Notes under the pieces: model-generated | Databases searched by the model: none | Seen by the model: only the letters and a program-made list of their open reading frames with translations | Told to the model about the DNA's origin: nothing | Made by a program: the position numbers and the translations under genes | DNA from: Roseivivax sp. THAF197b | GTDB lineage: Bacteria > Pseudomonadota > Alphaproteobacteria > Rhodobacterales > Rhodobacteraceae | Direction: 5' to 3' | Length of the DNA: 64,000 bases | Assembly: GCF_009363255.1 (NCBI RefSeq) | Contig: NZ_CP045318.1 | Location: 1,787,501 to 1,851,500, forward strand | In this document: positions 13,790 to 59,967 of the stretch, in pieces | Layout: every line of letters begins with the position of its first letter | Numbering within the stretch: position 1 is the first letter of the stretch

Positions 13790-13980
13790 TTAGAATGTGC
13801 CCGCGTACACCAGTAAGTCTCATAATCAGTATTATGTAAACAGAAGATGTGGCTGAAGCCAGCGCTATCGCGGTCAGACCTCCTGCACATCTCTTGGCCC
13901 CTCCACGGATGACGACAAGCCGCGCTAGACAGACAAGGCAAGCTGACGCTATCACAGACGCATTCTACGGAGACGTTTTC

Positions 13981-14781
13981 ATGGACTGCATCAACGTGAA
14001 GGCAACGCTCGACCCGGTGGATCCGGTCGATCTTCAGAAACGCGTTCTTGCACTCACCCAGCATGAGAAGATCGAGGAAGTCTGGGCCGATCTGTGCGAC
14101 GCCATGGCGCGCTACGGTTTCGACCGGCTGTTCTACGGGTTCACGCAGTTCCGCTCCGGACAATCGCTTGGCGATCCCGACGATTTCCTCGTGCTGACGA
14201 ACCACCCGCCGAGCTACACGCAAGCCTTCTTCGACGATCAGTATTACCGCGACGCGCCGATGGTCCGCTGGGCCCTCAATCACGATGGCGCGTGTTCGTG
14301 GAACGTCCTCAAGCAGATGGAGGACGAGGGCGTTCTGAGCGCGGCTGAACGGCGCGTTCTGATGTTCAATCGTGCGCGCAACGTGACCGCAGGTTATTCG
14401 GTGTCGTTCAGATCGGTGTCGCGCCGGGCCAAGGGCGCCATCGCATTGACCGCACGGATCGGCCTTGACCAGGACGCGGTGGATGCCATTTGGGAGGCGC
14501 ATTCGGACACGATCCTGATCCTGTGCAATGTCGCGCATCTCAAGATCCTGACCCTGCCCTATACGCCACCCAATCAATCACTGACGCGCCGCCAGCGCGA
14601 AGCGCTCGAATGGGTTGGCGATGGAAAGACCACGGCGGATACCGCGGCCCTGATGGGTTTGACGCCCGCGACGGTCGAGAAACATCTCAGGCTCGCCCGG
14701 GCCGCGCTGAACGTCGAGACGACCGCGCAGGCGGTGCTGAAAGCGTCGTTTCAGAACCAGATGTTCGTGCTCGATCTCTGA
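13981..14781 (+). CDS. LuxR-family regulator with autoinducer-binding domain, no luxI nearby
   Basis: This is a 266-residue regulator. An N-terminal acyl-homoserine-lactone-binding-type domain (about 30-170) precedes a LuxR helix-turn-helix (about 200-255: LTRRQREALEWVGDGKTTAD, then LTPATVEKHLRLARAALNV). In the sensor domain Tyr52, Asp91 and Trp107 (in YYRDAPM and CSWN) resemble ligand-contacting residues of TraR-type proteins, but the Asp-Pro pair is Asp-Ala here. ATG 13981 has GGAG about 9 bases upstream; the longer frame from 13849 has none. No synthase gene is in the window, so it is a solo receptor. Two insertion sequences lie just upstream. Confidence 0.88.
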   Translation: MDCINVKATLDPVDPVDLQKRVLALTQHEKIEEVWADLCDAMARYGFDRLFYGFTQFRSGQSLGDPDDFLVLTNHPPSYTQAFFDDQYYRDAPMVRWALNHDGACSWNVLKQMEDEGVLSAAERRVLMFNRARNVTAGYSVSFRSVSRRAKGAIALTARIGLDQDAVDAIWEAHSDTILILCNVAHLKILTLPYTPPNQSLTRRQREALEWVGDGKTTADTAALMGLTPATVEKHLRLARAALNVETTAQAVLKASFQNQMFVLDL

Positions 14782-16947: not shown

Positions 16948-16987
16948 GCCGTTTCCTTTCCGGTTTTCGCCTTGGCGGGGATGTGAT

Positions 16988-17039
16988 CCGGGGCATCTGC
17001 CCCCGGACAACCGGTGGACGTCAGGGATGTCTCCCCTGA
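16988..17039 (-). promoter_or_regulatory. Structured 5' leader of rpsB
   Basis: Two hairpins lie 41-92 bases before the rpsB start: CCGGGGCA/TGCCCCCGG (16988-17006, one bulge) and TCAGGG/CCCTGA (17021-17039). S2 is known to repress its own operon through a leader in other bacteria; that role here is inference. Confidence 0.4.
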
Positions 17040-17213
17040 ACGCCCGCCCCGCCTGCGGGATTAAGTGAGTGCGCGTTACACCGGCCGGGCCTGCTTCGCA
17101 AGGGTGTGAAGCGCAGAAAATCGGTTAACGCGAGTATCGTTTACAAATTCGCGTTTTGCATGTACGCTCATACCATATTTTAAGACTGTTTTTCACATCC
17201 GAGACCTTTCGCA

Positions 17214-17402
17214 ATGGCTTATTTGTCGCTCATTTTCCTATTGTCTGCGGTCATTTCTCCCGCGCCAGAGCGTCCGTCCTGCATGCCCATGGACGCCGAT
17301 GGGCCCGCCCTGCATTGCTGCCAGCTTTCCAATGGCCTGACATGCTGCAGCGAAAGTCTCGATTCAGACGGGACGATCACGGGATGCGACTGTTCGGGAT
17401 AA
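17214..17402 (+). CDS. Candidate exported Cys-rich microprotein
   Basis: This 62-codon frame starts with a hydrophobic signal-like stretch (MAYLSLIFLLSAVISPAP). A short mature part carries seven cysteines in the pattern C, CC, CC, C, C (HCCQLSNGLTCCSESL, then GCDCSG). Small secreted Cys-rich peptides normally form disulfides or bind metal; nothing here identifies which. The ribosome site is weak. Its last 19 bases overlap the start of the next exported protein, so it would lead a four-gene overlapping cluster. I do not recognise a family. It could be a chance frame, but the signal plus Cys pattern makes that less likely. Confidence 0.5.
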   Translation: MAYLSLIFLLSAVISPAPERPSCMPMDADGPALHCCQLSNGLTCCSESLDSDGTITGCDCSG

Positions 17403-18595
17403 TTGCGGCTGCGAGCCTGTCGGCCACGCTCGGCACCACGGGGTCGGCGCAGGACCGATATCGTTTCGAAGTCACGATCGAGGACCAGTCCTACACGTTG
17501 CAGACCGCACCGGCCGTGCATTACCGCCTCTACGAGACGGAGCCGGGACCGGGTGCCGATCTCGATGCGCATTATGACGCAAAGAACCCCGAAGCCACCG
17601 GCAATCCCAACAGGTTCGTCTATGGCGCGGGCAGGCTCGATCATGTCGGGGACAGCAGCGATACGCGCAGCTATGTCCGGGTCGATATCGGTCAGTTCGA
17701 GAACCTTCTGCCTGCGGATCCCACGCTTCTGGTGGCGCGGCTCACGCCGAATTACCTGGGCGGCCCACCGATCAAGCGCACGGTCGTTCTGAAGACACGC
17801 GCGCAATTCGCAGAGCTTTACCGCCTTGAGGTCAATCAGATCCTGCGCCTGTCGCAACTGGGCGAGGATGATTTCGAACGGGCCTACAAGGCGGCCTTGG
17901 GCGCGATCGACTATTCCCCCGATCTCGACAATTACCTGCTGTTCATAAAGGTCCTGCGGGCCGAGTTGGACAGCGGAAGCGGCAGGCTCACCCATACCCC
18001 CGCCACGCGAGAGGAATTGGCACTTCTGCTGCCGAAATATTCCGAGCTCGATTTCGGCAATCGCTGGCTCATCGACGTGGACCTTCTCGATACGCTTGTA
18101 GGCGCCCGCGATCCCGACCGGTCCTACGGCACAGCGGGTACTGTGCGCGATGCGGCGGTGATGCTGGGCACGAGCATGATCGAGGCGCTGGAGACGGCGG
18201 ATGCGGATCTGGCCAGCTTGCCGATCGTTCGGGTATATCAGCACCTCTCGGCCCTACATGCAGGTGCGGGCGATTGCATCTCCTTGTCAGAAAACGCAGC
18301 CCGCGCGCTGGCCGATGCAGATGAAATCCGCATGGCATGGTCGGCCCAGCGTCGACTGTTTCTCGACTGGGCCACCTGCCTTGAGCAGATGTCGGGCTTC
18401 GGCACAGGGCCCGATATCGACACGATCATCGCGGATGCCGCCGAAAAACCCTTCCTGAAAGCGCAATGGTCCGCCTTCGCGGAGGCCGGTCAGCGCGCCG
18501 GGACGCGGCTCGAATTTGCGACCGCCGCACCGGATGTCCGCATCCGCGACCTCAAAGACATCTCCCTGCGCATTTCAGAAAGGAGCCCGGAATGA
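17384..18595 (+). CDS. Exported protein of unknown function
   Basis: This is a 403-residue protein with a signal peptide (MRLFGIIAAASLSATLG, cleavage near AQDR). The mature part starts with a beta-rich segment (YRFEVTIEDQSYTLQTAPAV) and turns mostly helical after residue 150. Two cysteines (in GAGDCISL and DWATCLEQM) could form a disulfide. I recognise no domain. The start at 17384 gives a clean signal peptide; the longer frame from 17156 does not. It overlaps the upstream Cys-rich frame by 19 bases and the next gene by ATGA. Its periplasmic location and neighbours suggest work together with the solute-binding protein downstream. Confidence 0.75.
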   Translation: MRLFGIIAAASLSATLGTTGSAQDRYRFEVTIEDQSYTLQTAPAVHYRLYETEPGPGADLDAHYDAKNPEATGNPNRFVYGAGRLDHVGDSSDTRSYVRVDIGQFENLLPADPTLLVARLTPNYLGGPPIKRTVVLKTRAQFAELYRLEVNQILRLSQLGEDDFERAYKAALGAIDYSPDLDNYLLFIKVLRAELDSGSGRLTHTPATREELALLLPKYSELDFGNRWLIDVDLLDTLVGARDPDRSYGTAGTVRDAAVMLGTSMIEALETADADLASLPIVRVYQHLSALHAGAGDCISLSENAARALADADEIRMAWSAQRRLFLDWATCLEQMSGFGTGPDIDTIIADAAEKPFLKAQWSAFAEAGQRAGTRLEFATAAPDVRIRDLKDISLRISERSPE

Positions 18596-18885
18596 ACACA
18601 CCGACCCCCGTCACCAAGCCGGAGGTGCGCACGACCCGCGTGGGCCTCGATCAGGCCTCGAAACGCTTTGTCGTGTATTGCGCGGTTTCGGTCTCGTCGA
18701 TCATCGCGCTGGCGGTGATCGGTGTGGTGGCTTTGATGCCGCTCCTGTCCCCGGGATACGAGGTGCCGGAGACGCTGGCCAATTGGGGCGGGCTGATCAT
18801 CGGCTTCTACTTCGGCTCCTTCGTCACGCTGCTCAAGGACTGGTCTCAGGAGAGTGTGGATGTGCATCAAACGCCCGGAAGCTAA
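18592..18885 (+). CDS. Small membrane protein with two transmembrane helices
   Basis: This is a 97-residue protein. A soluble N-terminus of about 30 residues is followed by two hydrophobic helices (about 29-53, VVYCAVSVSSIIALAVIGVV; and about 66-84, GGLIIGFYFGSFVTLLK). It starts with AAAGGAG 6 bases before an ATG that overlaps the preceding stop (ATGA). Its own 3' end overlaps the solute-binding protein gene by 26 bases. No family is recognised. Such a pattern could be an anchor or small subunit, but it is far too small to be a full permease. Confidence 0.75.
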   Translation: MNTPTPVTKPEVRTTRVGLDQASKRFVVYCAVSVSSIIALAVIGVVALMPLLSPGYEVPETLANWGGLIIGFYFGSFVTLLKDWSQESVDVHQTPGS

Positions 18886-19708
18886 CCTGCGGCGCCTGGG
18901 ATCGGTCGCTCTGGGCGTCGCCCTGTTCGTCGGGCTGGTCACCGGCGACGGCGCACAGGCGCAGGACGTCACCCTGCCCTTTGACAGCGAGTATCCACCC
19001 CTGTCGTTTCGTGGTCCCGATGGCGTGGCCGATGGCTTCGACGTGGCCGTGGCGCGCGCCTTGTCCGACAAACTGGGATTGGTGCCGGACTTCATCCCGG
19101 CCGATTTCGTCCGGATCCAAAGCGGTAACTGGCCCGACGACTGGCCCTTTGCGGTGGCCTCCATGTCGATCACCGATCAACGCCGGGAAGTCTTCGATTT
19201 CGTGGGCGCCTATTACTACGATTTCGTGGTGCTGATCGGGGCGGAGACCGGTGGCGACCCCCTGCCCCAGCCCGGCCCGGGTGACCGGATCGGCGTCTGT
19301 TCGGGCTGTGTCTACCGCGCCTTTCTGGAGGGCAACTTCATGATCGGCGATGGCGAGATGGGATCGCCGCGCTATCCCGATGCCGAGATCGTGGATTTCG
19401 CGACCGATACCGACATGCTGCGCCAGCTCGTGGCCGCGGATGGCAGCATCACGCATGGTGTGACCAGCGCCCGCTTCGCCGAGTATTTTCGGGATCTCGG
19501 CTTCGCGATCACCGTCTCATCCGAAACCGTCTTCGTCACACCGACCTATATCGCGGTGCCGAAGAACAGCTCCGTGGCACAGCAGGACGTCGCCTCGGCC
19601 TATGATGCGCTGAAGGCGGAAGGCATTCTGTCGGAGCTGTCGGTCGAGCATCTGGGCCGGGATTACACCGACCCCGAGATGTTCAACGAAGACGGGCCCA
19701 CCGAATGA
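18860..19708 (+). CDS. Periplasmic solute-binding protein, family 3 (amino-acid type), with CxxC
   Basis: This is a 282-residue protein with a signal peptide ending GDGAQAQD and the family-3 binding fold: YPPLSFRGPDGVADGFDVAV, SMSITDQRREVFDFVGAYYY, and a C-terminal lobe. At the second crossover, where relatives usually read IGVQ-x-G-[ST], this protein reads IGVCSGCVY, so a CxxC replaces the usual ligand-contact turn. AGGAG lies 7 bases before ATG 18860, inside the preceding gene. No ABC permease or ATPase gene adjoins it, so it may be a receptor rather than a transport subunit, or it may use a distant transporter. Confidence 0.85.
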   Translation: MCIKRPEANLRRLGSVALGVALFVGLVTGDGAQAQDVTLPFDSEYPPLSFRGPDGVADGFDVAVARALSDKLGLVPDFIPADFVRIQSGNWPDDWPFAVASMSITDQRREVFDFVGAYYYDFVVLIGAETGGDPLPQPGPGDRIGVCSGCVYRAFLEGNFMIGDGEMGSPRYPDAEIVDFATDTDMLRQLVAADGSITHGVTSARFAEYFRDLGFAITVSSETVFVTPTYIAVPKNSSVAQQDVASAYDALKAEGILSELSVEHLGRDYTDPEMFNEDGPTE

Positions 19709-19726
19709 AGGGCAAGGTTGGGCAGG

Positions 19727-59892: not shown

Positions 59893-59967
59893 TCCGGCGT
59901 AGCTCAGCGGTAGAGCAGTTGACTGTTAATCAATTGGTCGTAGGTTCGATCCCTACCGCCGGAGCCA
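59893..59967 (+). tRNA. tRNA-Asn (anticodon GUU)
   Basis: A 75-base cloverleaf: 7-bp acceptor stem TCCGGCG/CGCCGGA, D loop AGCGGTAG, anticodon loop CTGTTAA with anticodon GTT, T loop GTTCGATCC, and an encoded CCA end at 59965-59967. The adjoining integrase makes its 3' half the probable attachment site. Confidence 0.97.

Follow-up and report, generated by a model that had tools for sequence, protein, structure and literature searches.

A conserved four-gene cassette of Rhodobacteraceae, also found on a phage contig: a possible envelope receptor or gating device with a solute-binding protein

What a solute-binding protein (SBP) might do in a gene set devoid of a transporter is the question raised by four genes of Roseivivax sp. 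THAF197b. These lie in a 64,000-nucleotide stretch of its genome (contig NZ_CP045318.1, positions 1,787,501 to 1,851,500; hereafter the window), where four + strand open reading frames (ORFs) in 17214-19708 overlap in turn by 19, 4 and 26 bases:

17214..17402, + strand: Cys-rich microprotein (micro), 62 aa, 7 Cys
17384..18595, + strand: exported protein (exp), 403 aa
18592..18885, + strand: small membrane protein, a hairpin (tm), 97 aa
18860..19708, + strand: family-3 SBP, 282 aa (alternative in-frame start, GTG at 18854)

The initial annotation had described these overlaps and had suggested a ligand-sensing or scavenging device rather than a transporter; the coordinates were confirmed, the set is not an ATP-binding cassette (ABC) importer operon, and neither a permease nor an ATPase is encoded in the cassette or beside it, the neighbours being rpsB and HupE/UreJ. 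The four genes are a conserved but rare unit, gained or lost as a block. With a probability of about 45%, this mobile unit encodes a receptor or gating device of the envelope instead of a transporter, a ligand- or thiol/metal-responsive envelope device being the most likely form.

All four genes occur in the same order in seven distinct loci (the window, five further loci in marine-type bacteria and one phage contig), so that the conservation of order with intact small genes, proposed as a check in the initial annotation, was found:

Roseivivax sp. THAF197b (window)
Roseivivax lentus (G007, L032)
Rhodobacteraceae metagenome-assembled genome, MAG (L027)
uncultured Roseovarius sp. (L034)
Sulfitobacter aestuariivivens (L035)
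Yoonia maritima (L037)
phage contig (L093)

A scan of genome contigs with the 403-aa protein as sole query confirmed no relative, and an alignment search found eight loci, three of which (L033, L036, L038) repeat loci already counted; a short weak match in Rhizobium (L040) and one in G547 (L041) were excluded from the counts, and L084 (G834) was dropped as the same record as L035. No permease or ATPase was recognised by eye in the DNA read beside the other six loci, the flanks of the phage and MAG copies being short. The four ORFs are real genes, since R. lentus keeps the gene order and all three overlaps of the window and differences in the micro frame are biased towards third positions (10, 6 and 25 by codon position). 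The comparison with R. lentus gives 16 synonymous and 15 non-synonymous codons in micro; counted over 55 codons, the values for the three frames are 15/14, 3/26 and 2/28. Amino-acid conservation at other loci also supports coding. Identity to the window is 76% (micro), 64% (exp), 88% (tm) and 70% (SBP) in R. lentus, and ranges over the four-gene loci from 31-76%, 30-64%, 57-88% and 34-70%, respectively. The chosen exp start falls within the micro gene in all six bacterial four-gene loci; the later junctions do not always overlap, with gaps of 24 bases between exp and tm in the MAG and of 2 bases between tm and SBP in Yoonia.

The membrane protein is the most conserved component (55-88% across the seven loci, with 25-76% for the other three). 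In an alignment of 36 sequences (A1; the window sequence plus 35 of the 67 relatives found), 16 columns are invariant, including G66, G67, G71 and G75. The second segment is near-invariant, NWGGLIIGFYFG[ST]F, and G67xxxG71xxxG75 has the GxxxGxxxG spacing of a glycine zipper, which is usual in oligomers. This conserved segment points to a second membrane helix. No Pfam match at E<=1 was found for the 97-aa protein, its NCBIfam match (E 0.044) is far under the cut-off, and its matches in PHROGs are weak and unnamed.

A sister form of the cassette exists at four loci, in Phycocomes zhengii (L028), Palleronia pelagia (L039), G334 (L030) and G067 (L031), where a relative of the 97-aa protein directly follows a predicted exported protein of 409-452 aa (export as read from the N-termini). 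The third-gene proteins align together (A6), and Pfam TPR repeats were found in that of L030, the one scanned. No SBP was found at these loci, and tblastn with micro gave only chance-level matches (E at least 0.18), with none in L039. The exported families of the two forms are homologous (hhalign probability 98, E 1.7e-13, 354 columns). Because the sister form has a TPR protein in place of the SBP and the microprotein, the core, as judged from these sequences, is the exported protein and the hairpin, to which a third, exchangeable protein is added. The conserved membrane protein and the exchange of the third one together suggest a membrane output that stays fixed while its periplasmic inputs vary. 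The reading of the initial annotation is borne out as regards a conserved unit, but the composition is not fixed, given the TPR form and the block-wise presence and absence; the tight overlap by itself would not prove one physical complex. A further architecture is possible in Rhizobium johnstonii (L040, 7364-8105), where a 72-aa hairpin with SNWGGLIIGFFIGSF stands immediately downstream of a small protein that bears Cys and looks exported; it is also hinted at in G547 (L041).

The SBP matches SBP_bac_3 (PF00497, E 1.5e-17), and its model (22 sequences, predicted local distance difference test, pLDDT, 86.5) shows a standard fold of family 3, with amino-acid and opine receptors as the closest structures. 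The alignments (A4, A7) include 17 of 18 matches, the eighteenth being the window's own protein. Cys147 and Cys150 form a CxxC invariant in 22/22 sequences, and L093 has CKSC. In the model, C147 ends a strand (143-147) and a helix begins at 152, and the motif stands in the predicted ligand cleft, aligned to the Q and S of VGVQLGS (Q-L-G-S) in AncQR. The carboxylate-binding Arg108 is retained, Ser203 (at least 90% conserved) stands where AncQR has a pocket Asp, and Cys150 occupies the position of an AncQR pocket Ser; in LAO, we take the corresponding ligand contacts to be Arg77, Asp161 and Ser120. PAAT ABC importers (LAO, OccJ, TTC0807) share the SBP fold and the carboxylate-binding Arg, whereas the cassette lacks a permease and ATPase, has the pocket CxxC and Ser for the AncQR Asp, and carries three extra proteins.

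The predicted model of the 403-aa protein (mean pLDDT 86.9, built on 9 sequences) has an N-terminal beta domain (~26-138) and a C-terminal helical solenoid (~139-399), and Cys298 and Cys332 are invariant in the nine aligned family sequences (A2). No match was found for the protein in Pfam (E<=1) or NCBIfam, nor for the A2 profile among PDB sequences at E<=1; structure matches in the PDB are generic helical repeats, and the viral structure library returned helical-repeat look-alikes and glycosyltransferases only. The hydropathy scan (19-residue window, 1.5) flagged no segment. The microprotein keeps seven Cys at 7/7 loci (6/6 bacterial and L093) in the motif CC-x-L-x-[NS]-G-x2-CC ... G-x-[IV]-x-G-C-x-C, with one further Cys upstream. 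Its N-terminus is hydrophobic with few or no charges (six loci), and the protein may be exported. It has no Pfam match at E<=1 and no NCBIfam match. The view of the initial annotation that no described system has this set stands: no described match was found in Pfam, NCBIfam, PADLOC or PHROGs (the microprotein being given to Pfam and NCBIfam only), and no description of the gene set was found among the open-access papers searched.

In the proposed device, the 97-aa hairpins would oligomerise in the inner membrane via their GxxxGxxxG face, and the 403-aa scaffold would sit on the periplasmic side, holding a sensor, which would be the SBP or, in the sister form, the TPR protein. To judge from its Arg108, Ser203 and Cys150, the SBP probably detects a ligand that is acidic or linked to thiols or metal, or else the redox state of the CxxC itself, and the seven-Cys microprotein might be a thiol or metal partner or a stabilising subunit. 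Closure of the sensor would then be passed through the scaffold to the hairpin oligomer, altering permeability or blocking passage. SBP domains that form part of a receptor protein are presumably seen in 3h7m, a histidine-kinase sensor, and 1ii5, the GluR0 receptor; the cassette SBP differs in being a separate protein, with a membrane part that lacks the K+ filter motif (no selectivity filter of the GYG type is present in the 97-aa sequence). If true, this would define a class of small envelope devices whose SBP works apart from any transporter and whose swappable sensor is joined to a fixed membrane part, and three protein families without any profile would gain a shared context. Furthermore, with one copy in a phage and with presence or absence as a block, culturable Roseobacters would offer a direct test of what the carrier gains.

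Several observations weigh against this device. The hydropathy scan flagged only one segment (24-58) in the 97-aa protein, the second segment being below the cut-off, and none in the microprotein. The scaffold's matches to helical repeats do not go beyond those that helical models obtain through a common arrangement, and the distance correlations among the seven loci lean on two close pairs, those with the microprotein being weak. Relatives of the SBP routinely found beside ordinary ABC permeases had been named in the initial annotation as evidence against a separate system; among the eight nearest non-cassette SBPs (from 198 family genomes), 5/8 do adjoin an amino-acid-type ABC permease (L049-L052, L055), whereas the CxxC is absent in 8/8. 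An FAD oxidoreductase lies beside two others (L053, L056) and neither gene beside one (L054), with all neighbours named from reading of translations. The wider SBP clade is mostly transporter-linked, and the cassette SBP may yet serve a distant permease. The ligand, the output and the physical complex of the device are each inferred.

A more specific form of the proposal, namely an undescribed phage-mobilised system in which a ligand- or redox-gated glycine-zipper membrane oligomer, controlled by a periplasmic scaffold with interchangeable sensors, serves phage exclusion or cell protection, is possible but rather doubtful. The foremost rival is a phage-exclusion or defence cassette on mobile elements that blocks incoming phage DNA or kills infected cells via the hairpin oligomer; this is unlikely, even though carriage by a phage makes phage exclusion plausible. 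In the phage contig (L093, 1-7143), the intact four-gene copy stands as cargo between the terminase small and large subunit genes on one side (PHROG E 3.9e-27 and 3.1e-213, with gpA domains by Pfam) and the head-tail joining (E 1.4e-57) and lambda-type portal genes (PF05136, E 6.1e-35) on the other, with a GC content of 0.545, lower than in the flanking phage genes (0.613, 0.617). Among the seven loci, this copy is nearest the Yoonia copy by exp, tm and SBP, and a TniQ gene lies ~400 bases downstream of the latter (PF06527, E 2.6e-12; L037 9504-11336). By the microprotein, however, it is nearest the MAG copy. The phage evidence is a single contig, for which chimeric assembly is possible; profiles of the hairpin (A1), exported protein (A2) and SBP (A7) all gave this viral contig alone, save a weak A1 match in L094, and profile A3 gave none. 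Furthermore, no match to the 97-aa protein, the only cassette protein given, was found in 50,697 INPHARED phage records.

The patchy distribution also favours a mobile defence element. The hairpin family was found in 7/394 family (Rhodobacteraceae) genomes, in 4/390 order genomes (a sample overlapping the family set) and in 2/385 class genomes, one being the window's own and the other weak. The exported family (A2) was found in 5/394 family genomes, all five within the seven hairpin carriers, and the 403-aa protein matched 2 of 61 relatives searched. Within the genus, the SBP gene is present at high score in 2/9 genomes, and three congeners (G002, G004, G005) have an empty site with HupE/UreJ and rpsB adjacent, ~210-240 bases between them. 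A copy in G061 (L029) is decayed (a hairpin match with TAG; no SBP or microprotein detected) and lies near transposase-type ORFs, one with a Pfam match above the cut-off and two below. The contrast between a conserved membrane part and three divergent partners is a further point in favour of defence. Against this, the GC content of the window copy is ordinary (0.626 vs 0.635), no defence island was recognised among neighbours read by eye, and PADLOC 2023 gave 0 families for three window proteins (the microprotein not given) and 0 for the L030 scaffold and hairpin, with weak TPR matches for their TPR partner. Prophage morons and superinfection-exclusion genes are likewise extra genes within a phage morphogenesis region, but no named exclusion protein in PADLOC or PHROGs was matched by the proteins given. 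Any useful cargo can be phage-borne, and general fitness cargo fits as well. Plasmid carriage was set aside, as neither the 97-aa nor the 403-aa protein matched in 72,556 plasmid records.

As regards a phage holin, no lysis gene was recognised by eye beside the cassettes, neighbours not being scanned in every locus. In the phage contig L094 (4986-5764), a two-helix protein ending in LIIGFYFG immediately precedes a possible endolysin (PHROG E 0.012) and could be a holin; most of the evidence for its kinship with the 97-aa protein comes from LIIGFYFG (33.9 bits), and that kinship is a lead only. Upstream of the Yoonia cassette, an immunity-type gene, Imm11, was seen (L037, 3380-4150).

Considerably less probable than defence is a scavenging aid, in which the SBP would pass its substrate to an amino-acid permease encoded elsewhere, with the scaffold and hairpin as a membrane tether. 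A genuine family-3 SBP related to ABC-linked SBPs, with the carboxylate Arg kept, suits this role; the hairpin, being the most conserved component, is ill-suited to a mere tether, the sister form does without an SBP, and the CxxC occupies the pocket. The window's genome has four TIGR01726 matches, three of them over the cut-off; they form two clusters, and every match has an SBP of its own next to it. No orphan permease of the TIGR01726 type, the one searched for, was thus found there, though the cassette SBP might share these permeases. With its PAAT-type permeases so provided and no permease nearby, a remnant of an ABC importer was also set aside. The same genome has another family-3-type SBP beside a cytochrome-c-like gene (L088, 638-2232), a pair which, we presume, resembles the XoxJ/MxaJ systems.

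Slightly less probable again is a copper- or thiol-responsive operon, in which the microprotein would be a leader peptide that governs how the 403-aa gene is translated, as CutF does for cutO. CutF-like proteins are numerous in Pseudomonadota and are recognised by a filter requiring Pro-Pro within the 15 C-terminal residues (PMC9973294). The microprotein resembles such leaders in being small and the first gene of the operon, with a hydrophobic start and a Cys motif (here a C-terminal cluster), and its gene contains the next start codon; it differs in lacking the C-terminal proline motif (Pro-Pro near the C-terminus in 0/6 loci) and an unusual junction RNA fold (4/4 micro-exp junctions ordinary; z +0.80, +0.52, -1.00 and +0.55 vs shuffles), where a CutF-like leader would have an mRNA stem-loop over the ribosome-binding site of the next gene. 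A CutF-type leader was rejected on these two grounds; moreover, seven Cys, including the four of CC-x7-CC, fit a product that folds. Very improbable is a solitary enzyme of the periplasm that has the fold of an SBP, like cyclohexadienyl dehydratase, and uses the CxxC, with the other proteins as holders.

The insertion has two flanks, the left one read from the empty sites of G002, G004 and G005 and from compared upstream sequences:

16951..17213, no strand: left insertion flank, the region upstream of rpsB and then the leader that belongs to the cassette
19709..19726, no strand: right insertion flank, 18 bp up to the end of the HupE/UreJ gene

To the left lie rpsB and tsf on the - strand (names read from translations), and to the right the HupE/UreJ gene, also on the - strand (PF13795, E 2.8e-47). 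The leader has a promoter-like TTTACA-N17-TACGCT, with TTTACA-N17-TACCGT as its R. lentus counterpart (both read by eye). CtrA control of the cassette was rejected, as 10 of the 11 cassette upstream regions have no full CtrA-like TTAA-N7-TTAA site (L028 having a one-mismatch site); the only full site lies ~45 bases upstream of 3280 in L027, before the microprotein gene. Rfam and tRNA scans of the window gave a tRNA-Asn only, at 59893-59967. A LuxR-type regulator-like ORF, read from its translation, lies near the cassette at 13849-14781 on the + strand.
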